This document shows, piece by piece, positions 1 through 31,086 of a DNA stretch of 36,512 bases. Source of the stretch: a virus; IMG/VR virus record IMGVR_UViG_3300042691_031808, positions 1 to 36,512 of that record. One strand, written 5' to 3'. The notes beneath the pieces are model-generated. The model was not told where the DNA came from. It did not search any database and saw only the letters and a list, made by a program, of their open reading frames with translations. The translations under genes were made by a program, and so were the position numbers. Each line of letters starts with the position of its first letter. Within the stretch, counting starts at the first letter, position 1.

Positions 1-1
1 A

Positions 2-1078
2 ACACTACGCAGATGGACATTTAGTGAAGGTGGTGACTTAACATTCCCAGATGGTACAGTACAAACAACAGCGTTTACTGGAGGTTCATTTAGCGGTAAT
101 TACAATGACTTAACAAACAAACCAACTGAGGTTGTAGAAACGATTGTACTTGACGGGTATACTCGAAGTTATACTGATGGTAATACTTACGTTGGATTAT
201 CATCATTGACTACTGAAGAACTGGCAATTATTGATGGGTTGGTCAACGGCGATACTGTTGTATTCACTGGAGCACAGAGTCCTACACAAACTTATACTAG
301 AACAGTAAGTTCTATCACAGTTAACCAGAGTGGATTCCAACGTCAAGTTTTGTTCACTGGTGGAGCTTTAACTAACACTAGTACTGGATTTATTGAAGGT
401 GCCCTGCAATCTATTAGCATAAATTCAACTATTGAAATACCAAGGACGTTTAATCAATTAAGCATAACCACAGTGGCCAAAGACGGTCCGGCTTCTGCAG
501 ACATTGGAGTCAAAGGCCGTGCGGCAACTGTTACAGCATCGCCCAGCAACAACACTAATCTTACTCCTGGAACATATCTTGGTGTAGCATTCGATCAATT
601 TTTACTTAACATCACAGTGGCAGCAAACGGTGATATTACAGCAACAGTAGCAACAAGCGATCCAGATGTTGCAGTTGGTGACTCGGGAGTGTTTGTTGCT
701 GGTGACTTTGCCGGCGGAACTGCTCCAGCAGACAATATTACATTTACTGTAGCCACATTAACTGACATTCTAGCACCCTTAGCCATAGACCTAACAAAAA
801 CAGTCAACAAACTAGCAGACGGTGTTTACTCATTAGCCAATGGTGTTGAAGGACAGATCTTGTATCTTGTTCCGCAGACTGGCACTACCGATGGCGGAGT
901 TTCAATAATAATCGCCAATGCTCGAGTACTAGATGATAGCGGAACACCAACAGCCACAGTATATACTGACATTGATTACAGACCGTTTGTACCGTCAACT
1001 GGAAGCCCTATAGCAAACGTTGTTACACTGATCTACACAGACGGTGCTTGGCAGGCCAGCAGTGGCAGTTTTGATTAA
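2..1078 (+). CDS. Tail-fibre-like structural protein, 5' end outside window
   Basis: The frame is open from the left edge to the stop at 1076-1078, so this is the C-terminal 358 codons of a longer gene. Near the start it reads TFPDGTVQTTAF, then SFSGNYNDLTNKP, both typical of the distal parts of marine phage tail fibres. A Gly/Thr/Val/Asn-rich beta-type composition follows, with no membrane segment. Around nt 566-770 lies a module ending in FAGGTAP that recurs in the 1534-residue adhesin downstream. A TTG at 206 could be read as a start, but coding-like sequence continues upstream of it, so I reject that. It is probably a host-adhesion component at the tail tip. GC content is higher than in genes after 8107 (34/60 in the line from 481). 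Confidence 0.75.
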   Translation, partial: TLRRWTFSEGGDLTFPDGTVQTTAFTGGSFSGNYNDLTNKPTEVVETIVLDGYTRSYTDGNTYVGLSSLTTEELAIIDGLVNGDTVVFTGAQSPTQTYTRTVSSITVNQSGFQRQVLFTGGALTNTSTGFIEGALQSISINSTIEIPRTFNQLSITTVAKDGPASADIGVKGRAATVTASPSNNTNLTPGTYLGVAFDQFLLNITVAANGDITATVATSDPDVAVGDSGVFVAGDFAGGTAPADNITFTVATLTDILAPLAIDLTKTVNKLADGVYSLANGVEGQILYLVPQTGTTDGGVSIIIANARVLDDSGTPTATVYTDIDYRPFVPSTGSPIANVVTLIYTDGAWQASSGSFD

Positions 1079-1080
1079 CC

Positions 1081-1088
1081 GATAAATA
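1081..1088 (+). promoter_or_regulatory. T4-type late promoter octamer (GATAAATA)
   Basis: GATAAATA directly follows the stop of the preceding gene and lies 16 bases upstream of the ATG at 1105. It differs at one base from the T4 late consensus TATAAATA, which needs no -35 box. The same octamer precedes several other structural genes in the window. Confidence 0.55.
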
Positions 1089-1104
1089 TGAATAGGACAC
1101 TAAC

Positions 1105-1311
1105 ATGGCAATAACATTTCCAACATCGCCCACACTAGGGCAAGAATTCGTAGGTGACAACTCTGTGACCTATCAATGGGCAGGCAATCGCTGGAGCACA
1201 GCAGTACCAGCACTGGCGGGCCGTAGCAGTTATATAGTAGTGGGCGGGTTCGCTAACACTGAGTACAATGAAGATTTAGACAACACCCTAGACGGTGGCA
1301 ATGGAGCATAA
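1105..1311 (+). CDS. Small tail-fibre-associated protein, 68 aa
   Basis: A 68-residue protein opening MAITFPTSPTLGQEF, followed by a YQWAGNRWS stretch. This is a short beta module seen at the start of, or as free-standing small proteins beside, phage tail fibres. The end is rich in Asn, Asp and Gly. It starts 27 bases after the upstream stop, downstream of a late-promoter octamer, and ends 3 bases before the large adhesin gene. That suggests co-translation with it, perhaps as a fibre adaptor. I recognise the N-terminal pattern but cannot assign a specific role. Confidence 0.7.
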   Translation: MAITFPTSPTLGQEFVGDNSVTYQWAGNRWSTAVPALAGRSSYIVVGGFANTEYNEDLDNTLDGGNGA

Positions 1312-1314
1312 ACA

Positions 1315-4300
1315 ATGACAACTAGAATTAAACTACGCCGTGACACAGCGGCAAACTGGGCAGAAGCAAATCCAATCCTAGCCGCGGGTGAGCCAGGACT
1401 AGAATTAGACACTGGCAAAGTCAAGTACGGCAATGGTACTAGTACTTGGACTAGTTTAGACTACAGTGGCGCTGGAGACAAATTAACCGACGATCATAAA
1501 GTTACAGTCACTGTGGGCAACACAGAATATTGGGCCATTGTAAATCGTGTCAATAACGACGGTGATGGTGTTGAAGCCAGTGCTGTAGCCTATGACAGCG
1601 AAGGCAACATGATTGCTCTACATGTGGCCGACGGCTTGGCCAGCGAAGGTCGTGAAGTAGTAATCATCAGCAAGTTTGATACCGCAGCCAACCTACTGTG
1701 GCAAAAACAAATCAACAACGAAGCAGACGGCAGCATAGCACACGATGTCTGTGTGGATAGCAACGACAATATCTTTGTGGCTCTCACTTCCGATGATACA
1801 CTAGTGCCCCAAGGCACAGAAGGTATTGACAGTATCGTTATCGTGAAACTTGATTCTGACGGTGCTGTAATTTGGCAAAAAGATTATCAGGGTAATGCGT
1901 CGGTAGCCGTCAGCGACCCTAATGTGTTCATATTCAGCAATACTGTTGCCACCACTACATTTAATGGCAATGCTGCACAGAGCATACAAATCATCAATAA
2001 TAACCCTTGGAATGCCACTGGGCTTGTTTTTAGTCGAACTGAGAACGGCACGTCATTTACCACTATAGGAACTGTGTTAGGGCAAACTCTTACTTCCCAG
2101 GATGATAACCCCCCTATAGCCGTTCTTTACTTTGCCGCAGGTACTTTTACAGACGATTTAGATCCCACAACATACGATTACAGACTAGCAGGTTCAGCAC
2201 CAAACAGTTTCCAAGAAATAGGTGCTATGGTCTGCGACGGTACCGACATTTATTTCACCGGCGAATACAATGAAGACTCAGACGGCGGTGGCGGCTCGGG
2301 TCAAGACAAGGGATTGATTGCCAAAGTGTCAGGTGCCACAGGTGCTCTAGTTTGGAGCAAGGTAGTTAATTACGGCAACATAACTACAGGAATGTTCTAC
2401 GGTATGGACATTGGTGCTGACGGCAATATAGTCACTGTGGGTGTAGTGGAAGTAATGGGTGCAGAGGATGCTGTTATTTCTAAATTTAGCGGTGTAGATG
2501 GTTCGCACATTTGGTCCAAACTAATTCCAAGCAGTGAAAACACAGCATACACCAGCGGTGATGTGGTCATTGACAGTCAGAACAATGTGTTTGTCAGCAT
2601 TAACAGTCGTCAAGAAATTGTACACAATACCAACGATCAACTGCTTCGTACTATAACACATATAATGAAACTCAACAGTTCAGGTGTTCAGCAATGGACT
2701 CGCAGAGTTGGTCCAGGACCATGTGCTTCTGTGGCCACGGGCATTGACTGTGACGCAACCGGCAATGTCTACCTCAGTGCTCTAACAGTGGCACAGGATA
2801 ACCCCACAAGAGAAACCGACGACTACTTCAACACCGCTAGAAATGTATTAGTAGTGGCCAAGTATTCTACCTCAGGCACAGTTCTGTGGCAGAGATACAT
2901 CGAAGCAGAAGGCTACGAATTTATTGCCAGTCACGTAGAGTTCAACGACGAAGACGGTGCAGCTGGTAATGGTTCATATCCTGGCGAGTACTATCACAGT
3001 CACAACAGAGGTAGATATGTCAGCCTAAACAATTCAGGCAAGTTGGCTGTACAAGTCAGTGTAAAAGCTCGTGACTTTGATAACTACGTATGGAGCACAC
3101 GATACACTGAAAGCATAACTTTCCAAATTGATCAAGACGGTCGCGAAATGACCATTGGCAATGGCAACGAGCGTTTCACTGTAAAAGCCAGCCGTGTGCC
3201 AGGCAAGATGGTCACACTTAATCTAGAAAGTTTAACTGGAGGTGACGCACCAACAGTCACAAATCTTGCCAGCAATCTATTAGTAACCAATACCACATTT
3301 ACAGTAACAGAAGGCGAGTTAGCACAACAGATAGCCAAGTCAGCACCCTATGAGTATGTGTTTGGCAACGATGGTACATTGACTATCCCCAATGACGGTG
3401 ATGTCAAACTGGTACAGACACAGATTGGTTGGTTCTCAATATTTGGTTCTGCCGAAGACAACAGCGATGATGTTTGGATTCGTGCTAGTTGCGTGGACAC
3501 CGCCACAGGCGATGTCTATGTTGTAGGACAGGATGATGATAACAATCAAGGCTTTGTGGGTCGCTACAACAGCCAGGGTCAACTGCTTTGGAGCATAAGA
3601 CTCTATGACAACGATGATGGTGTTGACACAAGATGTAATGCTGTTAAAATTCATCCTACCAGAGGCAATGTGATTGTGCTCTGCGAATACTACGGCAACG
3701 AAACTGCCGCAATGGTAGTGGAGATTGATCCAGACACAGCACGGGTCCTTGACACTCTTGGCTTCCGTGATCAGAACGCCAACAATGCTGTACAAGCCTA
3801 TGACTTTGACTTCTTCTCAAACGGTGATATAGCAGTAGTTGGTCGCAAGTATGATGAATTTACCACTATTCCAGTGGTAGCACAGACTGGCAGCGGTCTT
3901 GGCACATTGGTTATTCTAAACTCCGCAACTAGTTCATCTGCGGCACACCCTGTAGATACTAACTGGTCTGTTTCAGGAACTGGCATCACTGGTAGAGCCA
4001 GCATACAGTATGTAAACCGCTATACAGGCCTAACTGGTGATACAAGACCAGGTTCTGGTGCTATGTTTGAAGTACTAAACACCGGTGGTGGAAACTATAT
4101 TGTCACTAGTGCTACAGGTGGAACTAACTATCGCACAGGACACAAAGTTAAAATCTTAGGTACAGCCTTAGGAGGTGCGACTCCTGACAACGATCTTATC
4201 CTAACAGTAACAGCGGTTAACGGAGAAGTTATTGGCACAGGAGATCAAGAAGGTGTGGCCGCAGGAACTAATGCACAAACATATTACGAACTTACAGGCA

Positions 4301-5919
4301 CTAGTTATAATATAGGCAGCGGTGCTACGATTGATGTAATTGTTAACGATGCTGGTCTTATTACAATTAATAATATTTCTGCTGGTGGCACAAACTATGT
4401 CGAAGGTGATTGGATCGTCATTCCGGGAACTGTGTTTGCCGGAGGAACAGCACCAACTAATAACCTATATGCAGTAGTGGCAACTGTAGACGGCGCACCG
4501 GGAATTACTGGACCAGTTACGGCCTTTAACAGTGAAGTTTCGTCAGGAACAGCACCAACTACTCACCGTAAGATAGAAATCAGCGATGTTGTTGACTTTG
4601 ACAGTGAAGGCACTTGGACAGTGGGTTATCCACTAGGTGGTGAAGCATTTGTTTTACGCTATGCTACCGCAGGTACTATAACCTGGAGCAAGGTACTCAG
4701 TGGCGGCGGTCAAGGGGACAACGACGAACGCTATTTCTCTGTGGTAGTAGACAGTGACAACGCTGTGTATGCCGCAGGTGAGATGTTTTCAAGAGGCAAC
4801 GCAACAGTTGGCGACCTTGTTAGTTATAAGTGTGCTGTAGTTACCAAGTTCAATAGTTCAGGTGTGCCGCAGTGGACCAAGGCCCTAAATGACGACCTTT
4901 TCGATTGCTCTGCTAAATGCGTAGCGGTACAGGGAACCACTGTGGCAGTATCGCATCACACTCAAAACAACGACGACACAGTGATTACCAAATTAGACAC
5001 CGCAGGTAACATCAAGTGGCAGAGACGCACAGACAGTGGTGACGACAGTTCGGTGGCTATCGATACCAACGGTGACATCTATGCTGTAGTAGAAGGCTAC
5101 TTTGAAACCAGATACGAAGATATTATCAAAGTCATCAAGTTTGCCGCCAACGGTGAAATCAGTTATCGCAAGTTTATAGGTACACTGACCAACGAATACA
5201 GCAGCACTCACGAGTACTTTAAGAATGGTCGCAATCTAACCTTAGATGCGGATCATATGTACATATCGGGCTACACCACTGCTCCTAACAATGACTACGA
5301 AAGTGGATTTATAGTCAAATTGCCCAAGACTGGAGACTGTGATGGTTCCTATGGTATCTGGGCATATCAGACAGAAGAGTACGATGTAGACAAGGTCACT
5401 GAAACAGAAGCCACTACATTTACACCTAATGTGGGCACAGGCAACTGGGAAACATGGATACCAGACTTTAGATCTGAATGGTATGATCCTAGCGACGACA
5501 ATTACTATCACATGATGGAAGAAATCCGTGATAGAGACGGTGGTGCTATTGAGTTCGCAGACGGTACTCGTCAGACTTCGTCAGCACAGCAGATTCCACA
5601 GCGTAAGATTTCAACTGGTGCGGATCACAGATTATGCCTAGAAGACATGGGCAAGCATATCTATGTGATCAATAGAGCGATGAGAATTAATGTGCCTTAC
5701 CACGAAGACGCTCCACTGCCAATGGGCTTTAGTGTGGTCATTGTCAACAACAGTAACAGTATGGTCAGCATTGATGGCGACGGTGGTAACATAAACATCG
5801 TAGTTCCAGGTGTTGCTACCAGCAGTTATTGGGATCTAAGCAGTCCGGGTATGGCTACATTGATCAAGGTTGAAGAAAACCGTTGGTTCATGACTGGCAA
5901 TGTCAGTGACGACAGTTAA
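1315..5919 (+). CDS. Giant beta-propeller tail adhesin, 1534 aa
   Basis: The N-terminal 50 residues (TRIKLRRDTAANW, then GEPGLELDTGKVKYGNG) match the N-terminal module shared by phage tail fibres and the Bordetella phage Mtd protein, which anchors the receptor-binding part. Most of the rest is a degenerate repeat of about 50-60 residues with the pattern D..GN.Y......VAKYSTSGTVLWQR, like SBBP/quinoprotein beta-propeller blades. Blades lie at roughly residues 85-180, 300-560 and 700-870, resuming at 1110-1340. Two YG-type modules (nt 4045-4500) interrupt them. The C-terminal part has FADGTRQTSS and a compact beta domain. I infer a receptor-binding adhesin. The GC content is about 48-50% in two lines I counted, well above the replication genes. 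Confidence 0.8.
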   Translation: MTTRIKLRRDTAANWAEANPILAAGEPGLELDTGKVKYGNGTSTWTSLDYSGAGDKLTDDHKVTVTVGNTEYWAIVNRVNNDGDGVEASAVAYDSEGNMIALHVADGLASEGREVVIISKFDTAANLLWQKQINNEADGSIAHDVCVDSNDNIFVALTSDDTLVPQGTEGIDSIVIVKLDSDGAVIWQKDYQGNASVAVSDPNVFIFSNTVATTTFNGNAAQSIQIINNNPWNATGLVFSRTENGTSFTTIGTVLGQTLTSQDDNPPIAVLYFAAGTFTDDLDPTTYDYRLAGSAPNSFQEIGAMVCDGTDIYFTGEYNEDSDGGGGSGQDKGLIAKVSGATGALVWSKVVNYGNITTGMFYGMDIGADGNIVTVGVVEVMGAEDAVISKFSGVDGSHIWSKLIPSSENTAYTSGDVVIDSQNNVFVSINSRQEIVHNTNDQLLRTITHIMKLNSSGVQQWTRRVGPGPCASVATGIDCDATGNVYLSALTVAQDNPTRETDDYFNTARNVLVVAKYSTSGTVLWQRYIEAEGYEFIASHVEFNDEDGAAGNGSYPGEYYHSHNRGRYVSLNNSGKLAVQVSVKARDFDNYVWSTRYTESITFQIDQDGREMTIGNGNERFTVKASRVPGKMVTLNLESLTGGDAPTVTNLASNLLVTNTTFTVTEGELAQQIAKSAPYEYVFGNDGTLTIPNDGDVKLVQTQIGWFSIFGSAEDNSDDVWIRASCVDTATGDVYVVGQDDDNNQGFVGRYNSQGQLLWSIRLYDNDDGVDTRCNAVKIHPTRGNVIVLCEYYGNETAAMVVEIDPDTARVLDTLGFRDQNANNAVQAYDFDFFSNGDIAVVGRKYDEFTTIPVVAQTGSGLGTLVILNSATSSSAAHPVDTNWSVSGTGITGRASIQYVNRYTGLTGDTRPGSGAMFEVLNTGGGNYIVTSATGGTNYRTGHKVKILGTALGGATPDNDLILTVTAVNGEVIGTGDQEGVAAGTNAQTYYELTGTSYNIGSGATIDVIVNDAGLITINNISAGGTNYVEGDWIVIPGTVFAGGTAPTNNLYAVVATVDGAPGITGPVTAFNSEVSSGTAPTTHRKIEISDVVDFDSEGTWTVGYPLGGEAFVLRYATAGTITWSKVLSGGGQGDNDERYFSVVVDSDNAVYAAGEMFSRGNATVGDLVSYKCAVVTKFNSSGVPQWTKALNDDLFDCSAKCVAVQGTTVAVSHHTQNNDDTVITKLDTAGNIKWQRRTDSGDDSSVAIDTNGDIYAVVEGYFETRYEDIIKVIKFAANGEISYRKFIGTLTNEYSSTHEYFKNGRNLTLDADHMYISGYTTAPNNDYESGFIVKLPKTGDCDGSYGIWAYQTEEYDVDKVTETEATTFTPNVGTGNWETWIPDFRSEWYDPSDDNYYHMMEEIRDRDGGAIEFADGTRQTSSAQQIPQRKISTGADHRLCLEDMGKHIYVINRAMRINVPYHEDAPLPMGFSVVIVNNSNSMVSIDGDGGNINIVVPGVATSSYWDLSSPGMATLIKVEENRWFMTGNVSDDS
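4045..4500 (+). repeat. Two diverged copies of a GTNY/GGATP fibre module
   Basis: Within the large adhesin, about 60 residues encoded at 4045-4240 and again at 4296-4495 share an order of motifs: GSGA, a GGTNY turn, then GH/GD, a short strand, a Gly-Gly-(A/T)-(T/A)-P turn, and a V..V strand. A third, more diverged copy is in the upstream fibre protein at about 566-770 (FAGGTAP). They are protein-level repeats. The DNA has drifted, so recent slippage is unlikely. Confidence 0.5.
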
Positions 5920-5928
5920 GGAATTACA

Positions 5929-7629
5929 ATGCCTATTACACAAATATTATTAACGGCAAACAGTGGTGGCGGTTCTTCTATTAATATCTACGGTTGGAGC
6001 AATCCAATGAACGAAGGTTCAACTAACACCGTAACTGTAGAATACCAAAACTACTCGCCAACTACTATATATTGGCAGATTGTAAATGATGGCACAGCAG
6101 GCGGTGATTGGCTCAACGGTGAAATTCCCACTGGGAGTTTTTATATAGAGGGCACCGGTAATGCTAGTTTTAGTTGGACTACCGCAGAGGATCTTACCAC
6201 TGAAGGCAATCAGAATTATCTGTTACAGGTGGGCACGTCGGTGGGCAACAACAATCTACTTAATGAGACATTGACTATCTCGGATACTTCAACTACTCCA
6301 CCATATCCAGTAACACTGGCCACTACCGGTGGTAGTTTTTACTTTACAGGCGGCACTAATAATATTACAGTCAATAATTCACTCAGTGACTTTGAAGTGG
6401 GCACAGGCGACTACACCATTGAATGGTGGCAGTGGATGTTAGACACCAGCGGAGTATTTACTCGACCATTTAGTATGGGCTCATATCCCAACGCTATACT
6501 TGGCCTGAGTTTTGAAAACGCTGTATTGCTCTGGGCCAACGGCGGTGTAATACTTACTGCCCCGTTTAATCGACAAGATCTAAGTAATACTTGGGCGCAC
6601 TTTGCCGTCACTCGAACCAGTGGTACTACCAGGATATTCCAAGACGGTGTTCTGATAGGAGCAAATAACGCAAGTTACAATATTACATCGTCTACGAACT
6701 TTACTATCGGTAATGAGACATCGCCGAGCGTAGGCGCAGGGTTCGCCGGCTACATCAAAGACTTTAGATTTATCAAAGGTGTTAGTGTCTATACCTCAGC
6801 GTTTACCCCACCAATGGCTCAGTTAACTGCTACAGCAGAAACTAAACTGTTGTTCTCAGTAAACAGCGAACTTGGATTGTATACCGACTCCTCTACTAGT
6901 GCTCATACTGTCACCGCTCAGACCAATGGCTATGCTCCAGTCGGCCCGTATGACTTGGCTCTGTATGTAGATGCGGGCAATGCTTCTAGTTATAGTCTTG
7001 CGGATCAAACAAAGTGGTATGACTTGAGTCCAGCGGGCAACTATCTAAATCTAACTAATGTAAGTTATAGTAGTAATAGCGGCGGAAGTCTATATTTCGA
7101 CGACGGATTTAGTGCCCCAGGTTATGCTCAGACCGCAAGTACATCAATAGCCTCGGCACAAAACGGTCTAACACCACGTTCGAGTGTTAGTTTCTGGGGC
7201 ATTATTCAAGGTAATAGCAATTTCCAACACATTGTGGGCATGAGGGGCGGAGACAAGTTCCACATGGTATTGCGGAACAATAACCAAAGTCTAGAATGTC
7301 GAGTTGAAACTTTAGGCGGTGACCAGCCAAATTACTTTGATAACATGCCTGACATCAGTGCATCCCTTGGCAGTATGAAACACTATGCGTTTGTGGTCAA
7401 CGGCACAAGAACAGAAGTGTATATAAACGGTAGTCTAGTAGGTGAAACTTCAAATGTCACTGGATTGAATACTGGAACACTGGGAGCATTTACTATCGGT
7501 CGTGCCGCAAGTGGTGATTACCAATCAGAAGATCTATATGTAAGTCAACTACGCTACTACAACCGTGCTCGCGGTCCTAAAGAGATTGCCGCAGAGTTTG
7601 CTGCCACTAGATCTAGATACGGAGTGTAA
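5929..7629 (+). CDS. Tail fibre protein with two LamG/ConA-like domains, 566 aa
   Basis: Two concanavalin A-like (laminin G type 3) jelly-roll domains can be read. The first, at about residues 135-300, has TIEWWQWM, WAHFAVTR, IFQDGVLIG and GYIKDFRFIKGVSVYTSAFTPP as its strand pattern. The second, at about 345-560, has FWGIIQGNS, KHYAFVVNGTRTEVYINGSLVG and SQLRYYNRARGPKEI. Residues 1-130 form a separate beta-rich domain (NEGSTNTVTVEYQN). Such domains bind sugars or surface polymers and are common in marine phage fibres, so receptor binding is the likely role. It starts 9 bases after the adhesin stop, and its stop overlaps the next ATG (TAATG). It shares the higher GC of this block. Confidence 0.8.
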   Translation: MPITQILLTANSGGGSSINIYGWSNPMNEGSTNTVTVEYQNYSPTTIYWQIVNDGTAGGDWLNGEIPTGSFYIEGTGNASFSWTTAEDLTTEGNQNYLLQVGTSVGNNNLLNETLTISDTSTTPPYPVTLATTGGSFYFTGGTNNITVNNSLSDFEVGTGDYTIEWWQWMLDTSGVFTRPFSMGSYPNAILGLSFENAVLLWANGGVILTAPFNRQDLSNTWAHFAVTRTSGTTRIFQDGVLIGANNASYNITSSTNFTIGNETSPSVGAGFAGYIKDFRFIKGVSVYTSAFTPPMAQLTATAETKLLFSVNSELGLYTDSSTSAHTVTAQTNGYAPVGPYDLALYVDAGNASSYSLADQTKWYDLSPAGNYLNLTNVSYSSNSGGSLYFDDGFSAPGYAQTASTSIASAQNGLTPRSSVSFWGIIQGNSNFQHIVGMRGGDKFHMVLRNNNQSLECRVETLGGDQPNYFDNMPDISASLGSMKHYAFVVNGTRTEVYINGSLVGETSNVTGLNTGTLGAFTIGRAASGDYQSEDLYVSQLRYYNRARGPKEIAAEFAATRSRYGV

Positions 7630-8081
7630 TGTTTGAACACAGTCGCCTAGCAGTTGATCCAGGTATAGCAGAGCAAGTTATTGAACTCTACAGAGACCTG
7701 GACAACGCTCGCGGTGGGCAATACGGTACTTGGCACAGCCGTAGAATTCGCACAAATCCCTATTCATGGTTTGCGGCTACATTTAACAGAGTGGCTGACA
7801 GCATAGGTGACTTGGTTATAGACGAGTGGTGGTTTAACTGTGGCGAACCTGGCGATGAATATCGCTGGCATAGCCATCATCCTTATACACGGGCTGGCGT
7901 ACTCTACATACAAACTCCTGAAAACTCTGGTGGTATAGAATTTAAACGACAGGGCGAACATCAAGTTTTTCAACCCAGTGTGGGCGATTTTCTAGTATTT
8001 CCAGGCAATCTAGCACATAGAGTATTAAAGAATAACAGTAAGGATTTTAGAATCAGTGTAGCCTTCAATTTTAAAAATTGA
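7629..8081 (+). CDS. 2OG-Fe(II) oxygenase, 150 aa
   Basis: The protein fits the short phage and bacterial 2-oxoglutarate/Fe(II) oxygenases. The first iron-binding motif is at 80-85 (WHSHHP, H81 and H83 as likely ligands), then a GVLYIQTP strand, GGIEF, VGDFLVFPG (118-126), the distal ligand H130 in LAHRV and the 2OG-binding R141 in FRISVAF. The HxH in place of HxD matches the family with HxHP motifs. Likely reaction: hydroxylation of a protein or small molecule. Its start overlaps the fibre gene stop by one base, and it has the same raised GC as the fibre genes, so fibre modification is a plausible but unproven role. Confidence 0.8.
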   Translation: MFEHSRLAVDPGIAEQVIELYRDLDNARGGQYGTWHSRRIRTNPYSWFAATFNRVADSIGDLVIDEWWFNCGEPGDEYRWHSHHPYTRAGVLYIQTPENSGGIEFKRQGEHQVFQPSVGDFLVFPGNLAHRVLKNNSKDFRISVAFNFKN

Positions 8082-8087
8082 TAAATA
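8080..8087 (+). promoter_or_regulatory. T4-type late promoter octamer (GATAAATA)
   Basis: GATAAATA overlaps the stop of the oxygenase gene and lies 19 bases upstream of the ATG at 8107. A purine-rich AAAAAAGAGCGAGA stretch between them can serve as the ribosome-binding region. It marks the beginning of the AT-rich tail gene block. Confidence 0.55.
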
Positions 8088-8106
8088 ATAAAAAAGAGCG
8101 AGAACT

Positions 8107-8946
8107 ATGGCTATACAAACTATTAATTTAGGTACTTTTGCTAACGATGGAACAGGCGACGACCTTCGTGTTGCTTTTGAAAAAGTAAACAGTAACTTTT
8201 CAGAGATCAACGGTTCCGTTGTAGTTAACGGTCAAAACTTAGGATCAGGAACAGGATTGTTTTCTGGTAAATCTTCTAATGCAGGATTAGGAGACAATCT
8301 TACTTTTAAAAGTCTTATTGGTGGTCAAAACATTACATTAAGTTCTAATTCTGATAGCATTACAGTAAATGCAGCAACACTTATATCACAACTTGCAGAT
8401 GATCTAAGTCCTCAGTTAGGAGGTGATTTAGATCTCAATAATTATGCTATTGTAAATTATTCTACTCCTGGAGTATACGGAACTATACAATTAAATGGAC
8501 TAAGAATATCTCAAAGCAATAAAGTTGTAACTGTAGGAAATTTTGTAAACGATCATAGTTTAATTATTGAATCAGCCACAGACTTAACTTTAAAGGCAAG
8601 TCCTGGCGGTAATATTACATTTACCGGAGAAGTATTTTTTGAAGATCTAGTCAATGCCGATATAGTTGGAACAGTTACAGACATTTCTAATCATGATTTA
8701 TCAGATTTAGGTAATGTATCGAGTGTAGCTCCTTTAATTGGACAAACACTTGTTTGGAATGGTACAGAATGGACTCCCGGAGCAGGTACCGGTGGTGATG
8801 CAGGTAATGATGCTATAGATTGGGAATTTTTACCTTTCGATGGAATAGCTACTAACCCTATACAATTTTTATTAGATGATTATTCATTCGATTATGGAAC
8901 TTTTGCATCACCTATTGGTCCTGAAATTAATTTAGGAACGTTTTAA
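8107..8946 (+). CDS. Tail fibre-like structural protein, 279 aa
   Basis: It begins MAIQTINLGTFANDGTGDDL and continues with RVAFEKVNSNFSEIN, the N-terminal motif of many marine myovirus fibre or baseplate-associated proteins (a 'DDLRxAFxKxNxNF' helix). The remainder is beta-rich, with LSPQLGGDLDLNNYAI, a common fibre segment, and LIGQTLVWNGTEWTPG near residue 215. There is no enzyme motif. Composition falls to about 30% GC in the line from 8401, in sharp contrast with the upstream gene. The N-terminal motif is related to that of the 187-residue protein at 14488, suggesting a shared attachment module. Confidence 0.7.
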   Translation: MAIQTINLGTFANDGTGDDLRVAFEKVNSNFSEINGSVVVNGQNLGSGTGLFSGKSSNAGLGDNLTFKSLIGGQNITLSSNSDSITVNAATLISQLADDLSPQLGGDLDLNNYAIVNYSTPGVYGTIQLNGLRISQSNKVVTVGNFVNDHSLIIESATDLTLKASPGGNITFTGEVFFEDLVNADIVGTVTDISNHDLSDLGNVSSVAPLIGQTLVWNGTEWTPGAGTGGDAGNDAIDWEFLPFDGIATNPIQFLLDDYSFDYGTFASPIGPEINLGTF

Positions 8947-10300: not shown

Positions 10301-11893
10301 ATGACTAGAGAATATATTGTTTCTTTAAACGCAGATGTAGACTACGATCAGTTTTGGAATCAAATTGAGAACGAATCACAGGATGATGGATTTGTTCCTA
10401 CACGAAGAGTTGATATCGTAAATGCTAGACCAGGAAGTATTAGAAGCTGTCATTATGCGCTTACTGATCAAGAAGCGGAAATATTACGCAATGATCCTCG
10501 TGTGCGTTCAGTAGAAATTCCACCTAGTCAAAGAGACGATATTGTAATGCGTCACAAATACAATACTCAGACAGGTAACTTTACAAAGACTTTTTTAAGT
10601 ACAGGCGATAATCTAAATTGGGGATTAAGACGTTGTATAGATTATTTTAACCCGTACGGGACTTCTGATTCAGTAGAAGGAAATTACAACTATATTAACG
10701 ACGGTACAGGTGTCGATATAGTTATTCAAGACAGCGGATTACAGGTAGATCATCCTGAATTCGAAGACGGAGAAGGTAATTCCAGAGTTCAAGAAATTGA
10801 TTGGTATAGTGAAAGCGGATTACCAGGAACGCAAAGTATAAATCATTACAGAGATTTCGATGGGCACGGAACACACGTAGCAGCTACAGCAGCAGGAAAA
10901 ACCTACGGTTTCGCTAAAAATGCTAGAATTTATTCTGTAAAAGTAAGAGGTTTAGAAGGGTTTGGTGACACAAATAACGGTATAGTTGTAGAAGATGTGT
11001 TCGATGTTATAAAATTATGGCACTTAAACAAACCCGTAGATCCTCTTACAGGATACAAAAGACCCACTATTGTTAATATGAGTTGGGGATATTTTACTTC
11101 TTATTCTAATATCGACGGCGGAGAGTATAGAGGTACTCCATGGTCAGGAACAACGAGAAATACATCATATGGAATGGTCGGAGTATTTGATGGTTTGAAC
11201 TATGTACATAATATCAGAGTCGGATCTGTTGACAGCGATCTAGATGAATTAATAGATGTGGGTGTTATTGTATGTATTGCGGCTGGAAACAGTTATGATA
11301 AAATCGACAACCCTGATGGTCCAGACTGGAATAATTATTATAATAACCCGTTTGGCCAAAGATACTATCATAGAGGATCCAGTCCTCACAGTGAAAATGC
11401 AATTAAAGTAGGAGCGATTGATAGCATCGTTCCGGAAGATTTAGAACAAAAAGCAGTTTTTAGTTGTACAGGTCCAGGTGTAGATATTTGGGCACCTGGC
11501 GTGGACATTTCTAGTGCATGTAGTAATACAAATGCATTTGGTGCTGCAACATATTATGCAGATGCAGGATATAAACAAGTTAACATAAGCGGTACTAGTA
11601 TGGCAAGTCCTCAGGTAGCAGGTGTAGCAGCATTGTTTGCACAACTCTATCCAGGAATAAATTGTAACGGAATGAAGCTTGTTTTACAGTCACAAAGCGA
11701 TTTAGCATCGCCAGCAAGATTAGTCGATAGTGGGTTGGATGATGACTACACTAACGACAGATCTTTGTTAGGATCTCCTCAACATTTGCTATATTATCCG
11801 TTCTCTCAAGAAAATCCTGTTTTTCCTTCGGTAGTTAAGGCTAGAATTAGTAATGTGAGTCTTAGAGGTGCAGTGAATATTAGATTCGTGTAA
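10301..11893 (+). CDS. Subtilisin-family (S8) serine protease, 530 aa
   Basis: The full S8 catalytic triad is readable: D144 in VIQDSGLQVDHPEF, H189 in DGHGTHVAATAAG, and S433 in GTSMASPQVAG. An oxyanion-region Asn is likely in CIAAGNSYD. Residues 1-80 resemble an inhibitor-I9-type propeptide (REYIVSLN, ending in a DPRVRSVE segment), so it is probably made as a zymogen. There is no signal peptide. It sits between tail genes, 12 bases after one and 1 base before the next, so it is probably a virion component or a maturation protease for fibres. Degradation of host surface protein at adsorption is an alternative. The family is certain; the role is inferred. Confidence 0.9.
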   Translation: MTREYIVSLNADVDYDQFWNQIENESQDDGFVPTRRVDIVNARPGSIRSCHYALTDQEAEILRNDPRVRSVEIPPSQRDDIVMRHKYNTQTGNFTKTFLSTGDNLNWGLRRCIDYFNPYGTSDSVEGNYNYINDGTGVDIVIQDSGLQVDHPEFEDGEGNSRVQEIDWYSESGLPGTQSINHYRDFDGHGTHVAATAAGKTYGFAKNARIYSVKVRGLEGFGDTNNGIVVEDVFDVIKLWHLNKPVDPLTGYKRPTIVNMSWGYFTSYSNIDGGEYRGTPWSGTTRNTSYGMVGVFDGLNYVHNIRVGSVDSDLDELIDVGVIVCIAAGNSYDKIDNPDGPDWNNYYNNPFGQRYYHRGSSPHSENAIKVGAIDSIVPEDLEQKAVFSCTGPGVDIWAPGVDISSACSNTNAFGAATYYADAGYKQVNISGTSMASPQVAGVAALFAQLYPGINCNGMKLVLQSQSDLASPARLVDSGLDDDYTNDRSLLGSPQHLLYYPFSQENPVFPSVVKARISNVSLRGAVNIRFV

Positions 11894-15290: not shown

Positions 15291-15797
15291 ATGAAATTAG
15301 ACAAATTTTCTCAAAGTATCTTTCAAAGTCAAGATCTTTTTAATATAATGTATGAAAAGGATCTCGATGTCTTAAACAAAATCATTGTTGAAGAAGATTC
15401 GGAAATTTCCTCATTTATTAAACATTCCGAACTTGTTTTACAAACTACCGAAAGCATTTCTTATTCCTCTAATGTATTCGATTTTGATAGAAATCTTCAA
15501 AATCAATGGTTTATGCCTGATGAATATAAAGATTTTGATATTGAAGAATTTTTAGTTAACCAGTGCCCTAAAGAAAATTATACAAGATTAGTCGACGAAT
15601 TAAACGAATTTAGAAAAAGAGATATGATAGACTTGTTACGTTGGCTAAAATATTTCGTCGATACATGCCGAAAAAATAACATAATCTGGGGTGTCGGACG
15701 AGGCAGCAGTGTTTCCAGCTATGTTCTTTACTTAATAGGCATCCATAAAATAGATAGTATAAAATATAATTTAGACTGGCAGGAATTCTTAAGATAA
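15291..15797 (+). CDS. DNA polymerase III alpha (DnaE)-like fragment, 168 aa
   Basis: The C-terminal 70 residues match the stretch of bacterial C-family polymerases just before the catalytic aspartates: a helix (RLVDELNEFRKRDMIDLLRW), then WGVGRGSSVSSYVLYLIG, and IDSIKYNLDWQEFLR in place of the usual DPLKYDLLFERFLN. The protein stops there, so the PDxDxDF active-site motif is missing and it cannot be a polymerase by itself. The GRGS loop, which contacts the nucleotide triphosphate in DnaE, is intact. The N-terminal 90 residues are acidic and unrecognised. It could bind a Pol III partner or be a relic. It has its own promoter and no visible ribosome-binding site. Confidence 0.65.
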   Translation: MKLDKFSQSIFQSQDLFNIMYEKDLDVLNKIIVEEDSEISSFIKHSELVLQTTESISYSSNVFDFDRNLQNQWFMPDEYKDFDIEEFLVNQCPKENYTRLVDELNEFRKRDMIDLLRWLKYFVDTCRKNNIIWGVGRGSSVSSYVLYLIGIHKIDSIKYNLDWQEFLR

Positions 15798-16065: not shown

Positions 16066-16401
16066 ATGAACGTAGTAAAAGGTAAAATTAGTCCGATTAG
16101 AGACAGAATTTTAGTTGCCGATATGGAATTTGGTGAGGAACGTACAACTACCGGAATCATCATACAAAATTTAGACGGTAAAACCGAAGGTATTAAAGCT
16201 CGTTGGGGTCGCGTTTTTGCGATCGGTCCTGAACAAAAAGATGTTAATGTAGGGGATTGGATTTGTGTAGCACATGGACGTTGGACACGAGGGGTTAAAG
16301 TTGAAGAAGATGGTAAAGAAATTACCATCAGAAGAGTAGACAATGATGACATTTTACTTGTGTCGGATCATAAACCAAACGATGTATATATTCCAAAATG
16401 A
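16066..16401 (+). CDS. groES: GroES-like co-chaperonin (gp31-type), 111 aa
   Basis: The length and beta-barrel pattern fit GroES: ISPIRDRILVADMEFGEER (first strand), the region TTTGIIIQNLDG, equivalent to the mobile loop that contacts the GroEL apical domain, then GRVFAIGPEQKDVNVGDWI and a final DDILLV strand. An insert (CVAHGRWTRGVKVEED) resembles phage rather than bacterial GroES. In T4, gp31 replaces GroES so that host GroEL can fold the major capsid protein gp23. The same role is likely here. AGGAG precedes the ATG, and the stop overlaps the next start (ATGA). Confidence 0.85.
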   Translation: MNVVKGKISPIRDRILVADMEFGEERTTTGIIIQNLDGKTEGIKARWGRVFAIGPEQKDVNVGDWICVAHGRWTRGVKVEEDGKEITIRRVDNDDILLVSDHKPNDVYIPK

Positions 16402-17501: not shown

Positions 17502-18415
17502 AAGAGTTGTGGGTAGAAAAATATCGTCCTAAACATATCGATGGGTATGTTTTTAGAGATCAGCATCAAAGAGATCAAGTTGAATCGTGGATACAAGAAA
17601 AAAGCATTCCGCATTTGTTGTTCAGTGGAAGTGCTGGAGTTGGAAAAACTACACTTGCTAAAATTCTTATAGAACAAATTGGTGTACAAGACACCGATAT
17701 TATGTTAGCTAACGGTAGTAAAGAAGCACGTAAAATTGAATGGATCGACAAATTAATCAATTTTTGCCAAACCATGCCGTTTGGTGATATTAAAGTTGTA
17801 TTGATCGATGAAGCAGATTTTATGAACATTAACAGTGTTCAACCTGCCCTTCGAAACCTAATGGAAGACTATTCTAATAGTGTAAGATTTATTCTTACTT
17901 GTAATTACCCTAATAAAATTTTACCTGCGATTCATAGTCGTTGTCAAACTGTACATATTGAAAAAACTGATCAAACAGAATTTACAGCTAGAGTAGCTAC
18001 AATTCTAGTAGAAGAAGGTATAGAATTTGATCTAGATACATTAGACAATTATGTCAAAGCGGTCTACCCAGATTTAAGAAAATGCATCAATAACATTCAA
18101 GCTAACAGTATTGGAGGAGCATTAGTAAAACCTAATCAAAGCAATGATGACCAAAAAGACTATAGATTTGAAATGGTTGAACTTTTCAAAGAAGGAAAGA
18201 TACGAGAAGCAAGAAAATTAGTATGCAGTAAAGCAGCACCTGACGAAATAGAAAGCATATTCCGTTGGCTATACGACAACGTTGAATTATTTGGAAATGA
18301 AGATCAACAAGAAAAAGCTATACAAATTGTCAAACAAGGGTTAGTTGATCATACACTAGTAAGTGACCCTGAAATTAATTTAGCTGCTACTTTAATTAGA
18401 TTACGCTATATCTAA
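17498..18415 (+). CDS. 44: Sliding-clamp loader ATPase, T4 gp44-like, 305 aa
   Basis: An RFC-small-subunit/gp44 AAA+ protein. It opens WVEKYRPKHIDGYVF (RFC box II), has Walker A at 44-51 (GSAGVGKT), Walker B VVLIDEAD near 108-115, and the SRC motif (IHSRCQTV), which supplies the arginine finger to the neighbouring subunit. The C-terminal collar region holds the ELFKEGKIREARKLV helices. In T4, four gp44 and one gp62 load the gp45 clamp. The gp62 gene that normally follows is not here. The next gene, dCMP deaminase, overlaps by one base. Length is close to T4 gp44 (319). Confidence 0.92.
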   Translation: MKELWVEKYRPKHIDGYVFRDQHQRDQVESWIQEKSIPHLLFSGSAGVGKTTLAKILIEQIGVQDTDIMLANGSKEARKIEWIDKLINFCQTMPFGDIKVVLIDEADFMNINSVQPALRNLMEDYSNSVRFILTCNYPNKILPAIHSRCQTVHIEKTDQTEFTARVATILVEEGIEFDLDTLDNYVKAVYPDLRKCINNIQANSIGGALVKPNQSNDDQKDYRFEMVELFKEGKIREARKLVCSKAAPDEIESIFRWLYDNVELFGNEDQQEKAIQIVKQGLVDHTLVSDPEINLAATLIRLRYI

Positions 18416-18927
18416 TGAAGCAAAAATTTATTGACTTGTATATGGACTGGGCAAAAAGATTAAGTGAGCTCAGTCATGCTCAAAGATTAAAAGTAGGTGC
18501 AGTTATTGTAAAAGATGATTGTGTAATCAGCTATGGTTACAATGGTATGCCGGCGGGGTGGGATAATAATTGCGAACATAAAGAATGGATGTCGTCTGAC
18601 GCAGGAGGGTGGCTTAGTCCGGAAGAAATTTATGAACGTTGGCCTTTCGAAGAATTTACAGAAGTGCAATCTGTTGTCAGGTATAAATTAGTAACTAACC
18701 AAGAGGTACTTCATGCAGAAAGTAACGCCATTAGTAAACTCGCTCGTAGCCATAATAGTGGTTCCGGTGCTGATATTTTTATCACACACAGCCCTTGTCT
18801 TGAATGCGCCAAACTTATATATCAATCTGGTATTAGTGGCGTTTATTACGGCCAAGACTATCGCGATAGCTCAGGAATTAATTTCTTATTACGATCCGGA
18901 ATCTCAGTTAAAAAAATAGGGGAATAA
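18415..18927 (+). CDS. Deoxycytidylate (dCMP) deaminase, 170 aa
   Basis: It has a zinc-dependent cytidine/deoxycytidylate deaminase fold: KVGAVIVKDDCVISYGYNG at the N-terminal strand pair, HAE at 100-102 (zinc ligand plus catalytic Glu) and SPCLECAK (second and third zinc ligands), followed by GVYYGQDYRD. It converts dCMP to dUMP for dTTP synthesis, adjusting pools toward the AT-rich phage genome. T4 Cd is the known counterpart. Its start overlaps the gp44 stop (TAATG), and its stop codon lies within the loop of the terminator at 18911. Confidence 0.9.
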   Translation: MKQKFIDLYMDWAKRLSELSHAQRLKVGAVIVKDDCVISYGYNGMPAGWDNNCEHKEWMSSDAGGWLSPEEIYERWPFEEFTEVQSVVRYKLVTNQEVLHAESNAISKLARSHNSGSGADIFITHSPCLECAKLIYQSGISGVYYGQDYRDSSGINFLLRSGISVKKIGE

Positions 18928-18940
18928 ATCCCCTATTTTC
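18911..18940. terminator. Bidirectional terminator between dCMP deaminase and phoH
   Basis: A 10-base-pair stem, AAAATAGGGG at 18913-18922 with CCCCTATTTT at 18930-18939, around a 7-base loop. The A-rich and T-rich ends give a U tract on both strands. The deaminase stop is in the loop and the phoH stop begins at 18941 on the minus strand, so it serves both converging genes. Confidence 0.85.
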
Positions 18941-19655
18941 AATCACCGTATATTTCTAATATTTCTTTCACGGCATCGTGTCTTTCTATGTCCTCAGTAT
19001 CAAAATTTACTACATCTATATATTGAAGTTTTTTGTGTTGCTGTAACCTTTCAATAAAATTAATTAAACCATTGTCTTTCAAACGATCTGCTTGTGCTAG
19101 GTCTCCTGTTACTACCATTTTGCTTCCTTCTCCTAATCTTGTTAGTAACATCTTCATTTGATTTTGAGTAGCATTTTGCATTTCATCTGCTATGATATAT
19201 GCGTTTTTAAATGTGCGTCCACGCATATATGCCAGTGGGCTTATCTCTATGACATTCTCATATAGCATGTTTTCTATGTCTTTTTGGCTATAATATTCTC
19301 CTAATACATCAAAAATTGGACGGGTCCACGGAGCCATTTTTTCATTTAATGTTCCCGGTAAAAACCCTAGATCTTCATCTACTGAAACGGCGGGTCTAGT
19401 TACTATAATCTTATCAACTTTCCCTTCTTGAAACTGACGTATACCCATTTGAACAGCTAATAAAGTTTTACCTGTTCCAGCAGGTCCGATAGCAAAAACT
19501 ATGTTTTTAGTATCATCATTTAACTTTAAAATATAGCTTTCTTGGTGTTTATTTCGAGGAAGCAATAAGACTCTTTGCTTCTTATTAGGAAGGTACGGTT
19601 GAAAATCAATTACATTAACATCTGAAGAAAAGCGTTTTTTCACTCTTTTACTCAT
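18939..19655 (-). CDS. phoH: PhoH-like ATPase, 238 aa
   Basis: It has Walker A GPAGTGKT near residue 58, the PhoH-typical ITRPAV block (KIIVTRPAVSVDEDLGFLPG), and Walker B AYIIADEMQNAT, followed by TRLGEGSKMVVTGDLAQ. The ATPase family is widespread in marine phages and linked to phosphate-stress regulons in bacteria. Its biochemical task in phages, perhaps RNA metabolism, is unsettled. It is oriented against its neighbours. The ATG at 19655 has GGGAG about 8 bases upstream and a hairpin-plus-U-run leader. It ends at a shared bidirectional terminator. Confidence 0.92.
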   Translation of the reverse strand: MSKRVKKRFSSDVNVIDFQPYLPNKKQRVLLLPRNKHQESYILKLNDDTKNIVFAIGPAGTGKTLLAVQMGIRQFQEGKVDKIIVTRPAVSVDEDLGFLPGTLNEKMAPWTRPIFDVLGEYYSQKDIENMLYENVIEISPLAYMRGRTFKNAYIIADEMQNATQNQMKMLLTRLGEGSKMVVTGDLAQADRLKDNGLINFIERLQQHKKLQYIDVVNFDTEDIERHDAVKEILEIYGD

Positions 19656-19668
19656 TAAGTTCTCCCAC

Positions 19669-19722
19669 TTTTTTAAAAAAGTAGGACTTGTAGCGACCGC
19701 CCAGTAACTACAGAGGTCCTAC
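19669..19722 (-). promoter_or_regulatory. Hairpin and U run in the phoH leader (candidate attenuator)
   Basis: Read on the minus strand, GTAGGAC pairs with GTCCTAC (7 bp) and, after a small asymmetric internal loop, TGTAG pairs with CTACA (5 bp) around a 14-base GC-rich loop. TTTTTT follows at once, then AAAAAA and the GGGAG ribosome-binding site. This is the layout of an intrinsic terminator placed in a 5' leader. No minus-strand gene lies upstream that would need terminating. Confidence 0.5.
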
Positions 19723-19778
19723 AATCTTATTTAATTCTATACGAATAAATTAAAGTGTTATGATTTGATTTTAAGTAC

Positions 19779-19786
19779 GATAAATA
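19779..19786 (+). promoter_or_regulatory. T4-type late promoter octamer (GATAAATA)
   Basis: GATAAATA lies 25 bases upstream of the ATG at 19812, in the divergent gap between phoH and a plus-strand gene. The context CGATAAATA matches the octamer at 31951. There is no convincing -35 element, as expected for T4-type late promoters. Confidence 0.55.
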
Positions 19787-19811
19787 AGTATAGAAATTTC
19801 TAGGATAAATT

Positions 19812-20366
19812 ATGCGCGATATTAAGGACGTTATTGAAAACATACAAACCCTGTATAGCAATAATTCTAGTCTAAGCACGTTAAAAGACTTTGAACGTGT
19901 ATTGGATGAAATGGATATGTATGTTTATAAAAACTGGAAAAATGGGGAATTAGCAGAAGGACCCCGTGTGGACCGCCATTGGATTACTGCTAGCTTTATG
20001 TGGCCTAGGGAAAGTATGCCGGACCCTATGGCAGCAAAACGTCTTTTAGATTATGGTTGTAAAATCAAATATGAAAGAACTCATTTAGTACAACCTAGAC
20101 AAATTAAAAATCCTGATGATTTTAGACCAGGAACTAGGAAAGGTAAATTAGATAGAATTCCAGTTTGGTTAGTAGAAATCACCATGCCCAAAAAACTTGT
20201 AGAAGATACGTTTAATGGTTACATGACTAGAATGAGAGAAAGTATGGGCATAGGCAGAAATATTAAAGTAGATACTGCACCAAGTCAGCCAGCAGATCAA
20301 GCAGCAATGATGGGAACAACACCAGCAGCACCACAGGGAGGATTACCAAGTGCGCCAGCAGTTTAA
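19812..20366 (+). CDS. Conserved T4-like phage protein, 184 aa
   Basis: This resembles a protein I recall from many T4-like marine phages, without a known role. The body has a helical start (IKDVIENIQTLYSN), a segment RVDRHWITASFMWPRESMPDP, and IPVWLVEITMPKKLVEDTFNGYM. The last 35 residues are a disordered Ala/Pro/Gln tail. No catalytic motif is seen. It is preceded by a late-promoter octamer, which points to a virion or assembly role. It overlaps the next gene by 17 bases, with that gene's ribosome-binding site inside this tail. Confidence 0.7.
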   Translation: MRDIKDVIENIQTLYSNNSSLSTLKDFERVLDEMDMYVYKNWKNGELAEGPRVDRHWITASFMWPRESMPDPMAAKRLLDYGCKIKYERTHLVQPRQIKNPDDFRPGTRKGKLDRIPVWLVEITMPKKLVEDTFNGYMTRMRESMGIGRNIKVDTAPSQPADQAAMMGTTPAAPQGGLPSAPAV

Positions 20367-29133: not shown

Positions 29134-29347
29134 ATTAGAACAAATTAAAAAACTTGCTGGCATTAACAGTTTTAATGGATGGCAAGTTTGGGAAGGTAGC
29201 AACATAAGCATCACCGGAAATGAAAAAGGTGAGCTAATGAAGAAACATAATATAAAACCTGGAACTCCTGAATGGTTTCAATTATGGTTTAGTCTACCTA
29301 AATTTACAGGCGAAAAACCAATAGGTCCAGGTATAAGAAAAAAATGA
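29126..29347 (+). CDS. Conserved small phage protein, 73 aa
   Basis: MDELEQIKKLAGI starts it, and a motif KKHNIKPGTPEWFQLWFSLP ends in FTGEKPIGPGIRKK. I recall this proline and tryptophan pattern in marine T4-like phages without a known role. There is no membrane segment. It overlaps the dps gene by 8 bases and the HAD-GH19 gene by 4 bases (ATGA), so all three are probably translated together. Confidence 0.65.
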   Translation: MDELEQIKKLAGINSFNGWQVWEGSNISITGNEKGELMKKHNIKPGTPEWFQLWFSLPKFTGEKPIGPGIRKK

Positions 29348-31086
29348 GAATACTTGATATTATCAGTGAAAGATTAGGTCCTACTGGCAATATGGCGCTG
29401 ACTATTTTTGACATCGACGATACATTATTTCATACTACTGCCAAAATTAAAGTTATTAAAAACGGTAAAGTAGTTCGTAGTTTAACTAATCAAGAATTTA
29501 ACAATTATCAACTACAGCCCGGTGAAGAGTTTGATTTCGGCGAATTTCGTAATGCTGAAAAGTTTGCTCAAGAAAGTGAACCAATCAAACCTATGATTAA
29601 CACTCTAAAACGTATATTAGACAGAGCAACAAATACAAAAGTTATCATGTTAACTGCTAGAGCAGATTTCGATGATAAAGAAAAATTTTTAGATACTTTT
29701 GAAAAATATGGTATCGATATGAGTCGTGTGCATGTTCATCGTGCAGGCAATCTTCCAGGCGATGATCCTCCTGCAATTAAGAAAGCAATATGGGTCAGAA
29801 AATATCTAAACACTGGAAAATATAGTAGAGTAAATTTAATAGATGACTCTATGAGTAATCTAAAAGTTTTTAAAAGTTTAAAATTAGAATATCCAACTGT
29901 AGATTTTGATGCTTACTTTGTTAAACCTTCAGGAAGTGTTAGTGTAGTAGAATCGTGGATAAGCGAAGTTAAAAATCCTTACGATAAGGTAAAAGGAGAT
30001 CCGATAGGATCATTAATTCAAAACTTACAAAATCCAAAAAAACAATCTACTGCTGTTAAAGGTCAAGCAGCACAGCCAGCACCTATTACTAGTAGTCCTT
30101 TAGAACAAACACTAAGAAACTTTGCTATTAAAGCAGGGATTAAAGGAAAAGAATTAGCACAATTTTTAGCTCAATGCGCTCATGAAACTATGAACTTTGC
30201 CAGTTTAGTAGAGCTAGGTGACAACTATAAAAATTATGATCCTAAATTTAATCCAGACAAAGCAAAGACTCTAGGAAACACTAGTCCTGGCGACGGCGAA
30301 CGTTTTAAAGGAAGAGGATTTATACAATTGACCGGTCGCTGGAATTATACACAGGCCGGTCAAGCATTAGGATTGCCACTAGATCAAAAACCTCAATTAT
30401 TAGAAAAACCTGATGTTGCTGCAAAGGCTAGTATTTGGTTTTGGAAAAACCGTGTGCAACCAAATGTTAAAAATTTTACAGATACAAAAACTGTAACTAG
30501 TTATATTAATCCTGGATTATATGGTTTACAGAAACGTCATGGGTTATTTCAAAACTACTTGAAAACCATGTCAACTACTAAAGAAGATTATCATCCTAAC
30601 GATAAGCCCCCTGGTCCAGAAACTAAACCAACTATGCCGGCAGGTACTGTTAGGGTGGACGTCAGCGATGTATATGATTGGTATAAATTAGGACAACATA
30701 TTAGTAACCTTAAAGGTCTAGGTAAACATGACTTTGGCAAGGGGCCTCCAAGCACTATACTGTCATTTGGTAGTGAAGAAGAAGAACACAAATATATACA
30801 AGATTTAATGAAATTAGGTCTTGACACAACAGATATCGATCCCATTGATCCAAACCAGCCCAAAAATATAAAGCGTCAAAAAGTCGATCCGACATTCAAT
30901 GTAGGTGAAAACTTTGCAGACGGGCGTAATCCTCAGGATAAAGGAGACAGTGCCCGGCACGGTATTCCTAAAAAGGCTAGCATAAGTACATTAAAGAGCA
31001 TTCGAAGCAGTAAAACAGCAAGTCCTCGTAAGAAACAATTAGCCCATTGGCAAATAAATATGAGGCAAGGAAAGAAAAAGGAGTGA
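29344..31086 (+). CDS. HAD phosphatase-GH19 lysozyme/chitinase fusion, 580 aa
   Basis: An N-terminal leader MRILDIISE (I7-S8-E9) is followed at once by a HAD domain: DxDDT at 23-27 (nucleophile D23), a motif II VIMLTAR and motif IV VNLIDDSMSN, up to about 200. A Gln/Ala-rich linker leads to a GH19 domain at about 255-400 with catalytic-type HE at 280-281 (AQCAHETMNF), then GRGFIQLTGRWNY and WFWKN. The last 60 residues hold a DSARHGIPKK...KKQLAHWQINM element that I recall from other phage proteins. GH19 domains cleave chitin or peptidoglycan. Its probable packaging leader makes it a candidate entry lysin. Confidence 0.8.
   Translation: MRILDIISERLGPTGNMALTIFDIDDTLFHTTAKIKVIKNGKVVRSLTNQEFNNYQLQPGEEFDFGEFRNAEKFAQESEPIKPMINTLKRILDRATNTKVIMLTARADFDDKEKFLDTFEKYGIDMSRVHVHRAGNLPGDDPPAIKKAIWVRKYLNTGKYSRVNLIDDSMSNLKVFKSLKLEYPTVDFDAYFVKPSGSVSVVESWISEVKNPYDKVKGDPIGSLIQNLQNPKKQSTAVKGQAAQPAPITSSPLEQTLRNFAIKAGIKGKELAQFLAQCAHETMNFASLVELGDNYKNYDPKFNPDKAKTLGNTSPGDGERFKGRGFIQLTGRWNYTQAGQALGLPLDQKPQLLEKPDVAAKASIWFWKNRVQPNVKNFTDTKTVTSYINPGLYGLQKRHGLFQNYLKTMSTTKEDYHPNDKPPGPETKPTMPAGTVRVDVSDVYDWYKLGQHISNLKGLGKHDFGKGPPSTILSFGSEEEEHKYIQDLMKLGLDTTDIDPIDPNQPKNIKRQKVDPTFNVGENFADGRNPQDKGDSARHGIPKKASISTLKSIRSSKTASPRKKQLAHWQINMRQGKKKE

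Follow-up and report, generated by a model that had tools for sequence, protein, structure and literature searches.

In the Alteromonas phages A5, V22 and P24 a common and syntenic receptor-binding module is found in genomes that are otherwise unrelated, a pattern that has been read as horizontal exchange (Gonzalez-Serrano et al. 2023, PMC10579305). Laminin-G3 lectin domains are described in jumbo-phage tail fibres in the passages found of a further survey (PMC7824862), and metabolic or repair roles have been proposed for the 2-oxoglutarate (2OG)-Fe(II) oxygenases of cyanophages (PMC3037559). Here we describe a block of four genes, g2 to g5, at ~1080-8080 of the virus record IMGVR_UViG_3300042691_031808, of which positions 1-36,512, a 36.5-kb fragment on a single metagenomic contig, form the stretch of DNA that was analysed (the window). 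We read this block as a host-adhesion module that is exchanged as a unit by jumbo-type phages and was gained at this locus by the lineage of the window, and put the probability of this reading at about 0.86.

The block is delimited by its base composition. In 1-kb windows the guanine plus cytosine (GC) content is 0.44-0.47 at ~500-8000 and 0.29-0.39 past 8000, and the best change point falls at 7986, with 45.3% GC on one side and 34.6% on the other (twice the log-likelihood difference, 2ΔlnL, 298). At four-fold degenerate sites GC goes from 0.35 to 0.14, with a sharp fall at ~8080 and a single change point with a 2ΔlnL of 110, against a maximum of 21 in 2000 permutations. By gene, these sites have a GC of 0.34-0.39 in g2-g5 and 0.09-0.14 in g6 and g7, the difference between the adjacent g5 and g6 being significant on its own (Fisher p = 2e-5); since the step is present at four-fold sites, amino acid content is not its cause. 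Codon choice changes across the same step, for glycine (GGC 0.37 to 0.15, GGA 0.15 to 0.42), for alanine (GCC 0.26 to 0.09, GCA 0.35 to 0.46) and in the AAG fraction (0.49 to 0.13). The initial annotation of the window had reported both a sharp drop in GC near 8081-8107 and a shift from GGC/GCC to GGA/GCA codons, and these measurements bear it out; the profile across the boundary is anything but smooth. It had also let the block begin at the left edge of the window, which has to be revised. The best model with two change points puts the left limit at 1048-1057 (support interval 385-1215), and g1 (2..1078, + strand), the C-terminal part of a resident tail or adhesin protein truncated by the contig end, has a four-fold GC of 0.20, near background, compared with 0.34 for g2 and g3 together (p = 9e-5). 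The C-terminus of g1 is moreover 34-41% identical in amino acids to the left-hand neighbour of the slot in two relatives that lack the module, L173 and L143 (L numbers denote loci on viral contigs), which makes g1 the resident left neighbour of a 7-kb high-GC block.

The same locus was compared in relatives found with three queries: g5 (35 loci), g3 (33 loci, from an alignment query, a single-sequence g3 search of viral contigs having given none) and the resident gene directly right of the block, g6 (8107..8946, +; 41 loci). The last search was the decisive one, as it revealed the module-free relatives. In the four nearest backbone relatives, L173 and L141-L143, the order g6-g7-(S8)-g9 is kept, S8 being a subtilase gene, and g2-g5 are absent at the slot. 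L173 is 64% identical to the window in g9, 92% in PhoH and 78% in DNA over 18415-20114, and the window g9 is its sister on the tree (support 96/95); L141-L143 are 61% identical in g9 and 56-58% in S8. The slot is occupied by one ~240-aa fatty-acid desaturase instead of the module in L142, L143 and L173 (Pfam PF00487 matched for the first two, the L173 protein being 95% identical to that of L143), and by a laminin-G (LamG) lectin gene in L141. DNA homology to the window resumes at 8072 (L141), 8080 (L143 and L142) and 8087 (L173), that is, on the composition step. Among close backbone relatives the module is hence present, absent or replaced at one locus, and two forms of it can be told apart, type A in the window and L017 and type B in L008, L020, L027, L031 and L036. 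The gain in the window lineage is placed after its split from L173, with no closer dating.

The module is also found in phages that are only distantly related, where adhesin and oxygenase proteins are 84-97% identical and backbone proteins 36-62% identical. Between L008 and L031, for example, g3 is 84% and g5 97% identical and the module ~88% identical in DNA over 6.8 kb, compared with 36-62% for the backbone proteins (g6, g9, g10, g11, g12, clamp loader and PhoH). Type-B modules as a group share ~84-94% DNA identity, with flanks mostly unaligned at that level; their homology begins at the motif GATAAATA before g2, and its end falls in the interval from the g5 stop codon to ~250 bp into g6. 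Module and backbone trees disagree in approximately unbiased (AU) tests (p 3e-8 to 1e-56): the pairing of L008 with L031 is rejected by g9 (p-AU 5e-46), the clamp loader (3e-8) and seven joined backbone proteins (1e-56), the grouping of the window with L008 and L027 is rejected by g5 (2e-9), and that of the window with L017, whose g5 proteins are 83% identical, by g9 (6e-47). Mapped on a g9 tree of 25 rows, module state changes 6 times, against 6.5 with shuffled labels, so that it carries no phylogenetic signal. More than 100 kb separate the module from g9 and the clamp loader in two relatives of ~355 kb, G013 and G015.

Two other accounts of the locus were considered along the way. From L008 alone the module had seemed conserved in place and hence not acquired, a view that was dropped after the DNA-level comparison and the finding of module-free relatives; replacement of a type-B by a type-A module in situ in the window lineage was also considered, and the joined backbone tree decides neither for nor against this (support 73/72, p 0.35 for the alternative). 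As a separate observation, in G015 (353 kb; L079:1-1230 and L132:6717-13121) the type-B g4-g5 end is apparently joined, across contig ends, to a different adhesin trunk of 2135 aa, and g4-g5 may therefore also move without g3.

The reading of the block as an acquired cassette is well supported: presence and absence at the locus, the breakpoints and the incongruent trees are observed directly, as are the domain content and the predicted fold of g5 described below. The initial annotation had called the cassette recently acquired, and of this the acquisition stands, with a block that is absent in the four nearest backbone relatives, ends at composition steps and has mobile homologues; it is not conserved in sequence and place in all relatives. 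The word 'recent' holds at most in a relative sense: the closest adhesin sampled shares only 65% amino acid identity with the window g3, which gives no date for the arrival. Several further points weigh against our reading. Among the sampled modules no near-identical donor was found. The backbone is itself a mosaic, and the clamp loader alone rejects the window with L008 and L027 (p 4e-4). The module-free relatives are represented by fragments of 21-41 kb and may carry the module elsewhere; g5 had no match in 14 module-free contigs, which is weak evidence because these are fragments. Loss in four relatives could stand in place of gain in one. Finally, the composition of the module partly tracks the background, with a slope of 0.44 ± 0.20 over 29 loci, which weakened a previous claim of independence (slope 0.06, 21 loci), and its excess over the background is so general that part of it may be intrinsic.

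The last two points belong to the strongest alternative, in which the locus carried the module ancestrally and L173 and L141-L143 have lost it, the higher GC of the module coming from codon selection in long, highly translated adhesins and not from transfer. We consider this unlikely. It would account for the occurrence of the module at the same place in several distant backbones, and for a four-fold GC of g3 that in 25 of 29 loci is higher than in the genome that carries it (mean 0.345 vs 0.258). However, the other genes of at least 700 aa have no such excess (mean difference -0.03), and neither is the excess of g3 uniform: it is big in AT-rich backgrounds (the window, L115, L013 and L035), and small or absent in several GC-richer ones (L082, L012 and L111, with L016 and L103 as exceptions) and in L088, L128 and L130. 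In L104 a type-A g3 has 0.20 in a background of 0.14, so the composition of the module is not fixed. A module identity of ~88% in DNA across backbones that do not align is also hard to reconcile with descent in place. Incomplete adjustment after transfer is the explanation of the composition step that we prefer. Very improbable is a chimeric assembly in which two phages were joined at ~8080, as the abruptness of the step at a single point on one metagenomic contig could suggest, since the g5-g6 junction recurs in the independent contigs L008, L017, L027, L082 and L083 and g1 matches in kind the gene to the left of the slot in the module-free L173 and L143. That tail fibre genes simply owe a higher GC to their many Gly, Ala, Thr and Ser codons, to which the high GC at first and second codon positions of the block and the GC of the structural genes g7 and g8, somewhat above most of the remaining window, might point, is refuted by a step that is equally strong at four-fold sites, where the structural genes g6, g7 and g9 lie at 0.09-0.14.

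Under transfer of a module as a unit, the events at the locus can be outlined as follows. The module would form its own transcription unit, for late transcription, between two copies of GATAAATA, one at its left end (1081..1088, +) and one at its right end (8080..8087, +), where the composition step lies and homology to module-free relatives starts. This motif, which resembles the late promoter of T4-like phages, occurs five times in the window, always on the + strand and 13-38 bp upstream of a gene start, a placement consistent with a T4-type late promoter. Resident sequence lies on both sides, g1 to the left and g6-g7-S8-g9 to the right, and the gain, after the split from the nearest sampled relative, probably took place via recombination in conserved flanks. 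Two shared stretches are plausible recombination anchors: one at the left end (1075..1449, +), 82% identical in DNA to L008 by blastn in a module that is otherwise highly diverged (376 bp shared by type A of the window and type B of L008), and an internal one at the end of g3 and start of g4 (5894..6257, +), 74% identical to the type-B module of L008. The module would have retained the composition of the module pool within a more AT-rich genome, hence the GC step. The neighbour g6 immediately follows the slot in L008, L017, L082, L083, L141-L143 and L173. Between g7 and g9 of the window lies the S8 gene (10301-11893), which is also present in L141-L143, stands before g6 in L080 and is absent at the tail locus of L008, L082 and L173.

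The four genes of the module are all on the + strand. It is headed by g2 (1105..1311), a small protein of 68 aa that is 72% identical in L006 and L007 and has counterparts in L012, L016, L103, L108, L109 and L111. The adhesin g3 (1315..5919, 1534 aa) starts with an Mtd_N domain (aa 5-43, Pfam 4.6e-14), followed by a predicted beta-propeller in the AlphaFold model of aa 1-720 (predicted local distance difference test score, pLDDT, 71), whose nearest structures are CylK, PL24 polysaccharide lyases and sialidases. Within g3, aa 880-1066 (187 aa, nt 3952-4512) have a background-like four-fold GC of 0.22, compared with 0.31-0.39 for the rest of the gene, which we take to indicate that domains have been swapped within the module; smaller domains may thus also be exchanged or inserted within the block. 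Stretches similar to this insert match other virion proteins of relatives. The third gene, g4 (5929..7629), encodes a laminin-G/concanavalin-type lectin (Pfam Laminin_G_3, 6e-24) and is the variable member, poorly conserved and 227-976 aa long among relatives. The putative receptor-binding content (Mtd_N, LamG and beta-propeller matches), together with the variability of g4, makes the host-range role tentatively proposed in the initial annotation plausible, most likely with g3 as adhesin trunk and g4 as variable receptor-binding tip.

The last gene, g5 (7629..8081), encodes a 2OG-Fe(II) oxygenase of 150 aa (Pfam 2OG-FeII_Oxy_5, 8e-14; 52.2 bits against PF13759, above the curated cut-off of 27) and is the most conserved gene of the module. 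Its model (pLDDT 93) has a predicted double-stranded beta-helix fold with a conserved His/Arg active-site pattern, H81, H83, H130 and R141 being invariant in 15 sequences, and its nearest PDB entries are 2rg4/3bvc, followed by the prolyl 4-hydroxylase 4j25. The start of g5 overlaps the stop of g4, and in most relatives it lies a few bases from the preceding stop. A desaturase-type gene follows directly after g5 in L007, L011, L020 and L103, and directly after the adhesin in L142, L143 and L173; taken with g5 itself, these genes make iron-dependent oxidative enzymes a recurrent feature of the 3' end of the adhesin unit. The most likely function of g5 would be to modify the adhesin or the host surface. 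More speculatively, the enzymes in this 3' position may be a functional part of host recognition, by hydroxylating and so activating or tuning the adhesin, or by altering the host envelope and with it the receptor after infection; if so, this would be a mobile adhesin-plus-modifier system. PF00487 desaturases recur directly after tail-adhesin genes or g5 in many jumbo-type contigs (for example L142:4130-4837, L143:9239-9979, L173:9214-9981 and L006:12933-13646), with none noted among the annotated genes of the window.

By its sequence affinities the window is part of a jumbo-type phage genome of an uncultivated virus. Its clamp loader is closest to those of the jumbo phages PA5oct, Phosso and Atu_ph07, the last two of which are also matched by g9, and lengths of 282-355 kb are reached by relatives in IMG/VR. 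The first 20 kb had no match to known phages in a megablast search, and a scan of bacterial and archaeal genomes gave no relative of g3 and therefore no link to a host or prophage. Elsewhere in the window, a stand-alone protein of 168 aa (15291-15797) matches a partial bacterial DNA polymerase III alpha domain (PF07733, E 1e-13) and adjoins tail genes in relatives too (~36-58% identity). A phage Cpn10 (GroES-like) co-chaperonin is encoded at 16066-16401, with DnaJ-like, ClpA-like, peptide-deformylase-like and ferritin-like genes further on. At 29344-31086 a glycoside hydrolase 19 (GH19, endolysin-like) domain is joined to an N-terminal sequence that by eye is like a haloacid dehalogenase (HAD) phosphatase, and a second GH19 gene (31090-31725) adjoins it.

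The locus is a clearly delimited case in which receptor-binding genes have travelled together between large phages, and for which breakpoints, trees and the alternative allele are all available. Exchange of adhesin modules is already known; the tightly linked oxygenase and desaturase genes look new, and no adhesin-linked oxygenase module was found described in the literature searched, which was covered in part. In many lineages an Fe(II)-dependent oxygenase is linked to phage adhesins, and frequently a desaturase as well, which hints at chemical modification of adhesin or receptor. Mtd_N, the only Pfam match in g3, is shared with the tail protein of the major tropism determinant (Mtd) system diversified by diversity-generating retroelements, to which we do not assign g3, no search directed at a reverse transcriptase or template repeat having been made. 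The jumbo-phage fibres of PMC7824862 likewise carry concanavalin-fold lectin domains on virion fibre proteins, and the passages found of that survey describe no module, module exchange or linked oxygenase. The oxygenases of cyanophages and pelagiphages belong to the superfamily of g5, at ~24-38% identity in the best rows; none of the three records inspected has them after a tail adhesin, their neighbours being photosystem, terminase or small hypothetical genes. The closest precedent is the module of the Alteromonas phages A5, V22 and P24, which is alike in being a host-recognition module common to unrelated genomes. It consists, however, of a central fibre, a tail fibre and a DUF4376 chaperone, whereas in the module described here an Mtd_N propeller adhesin is combined with a LamG lectin and a 2OG-Fe(II) oxygenase and no chaperone was recognised; this module moves within jumbo-type phages and is marked by a composition step.

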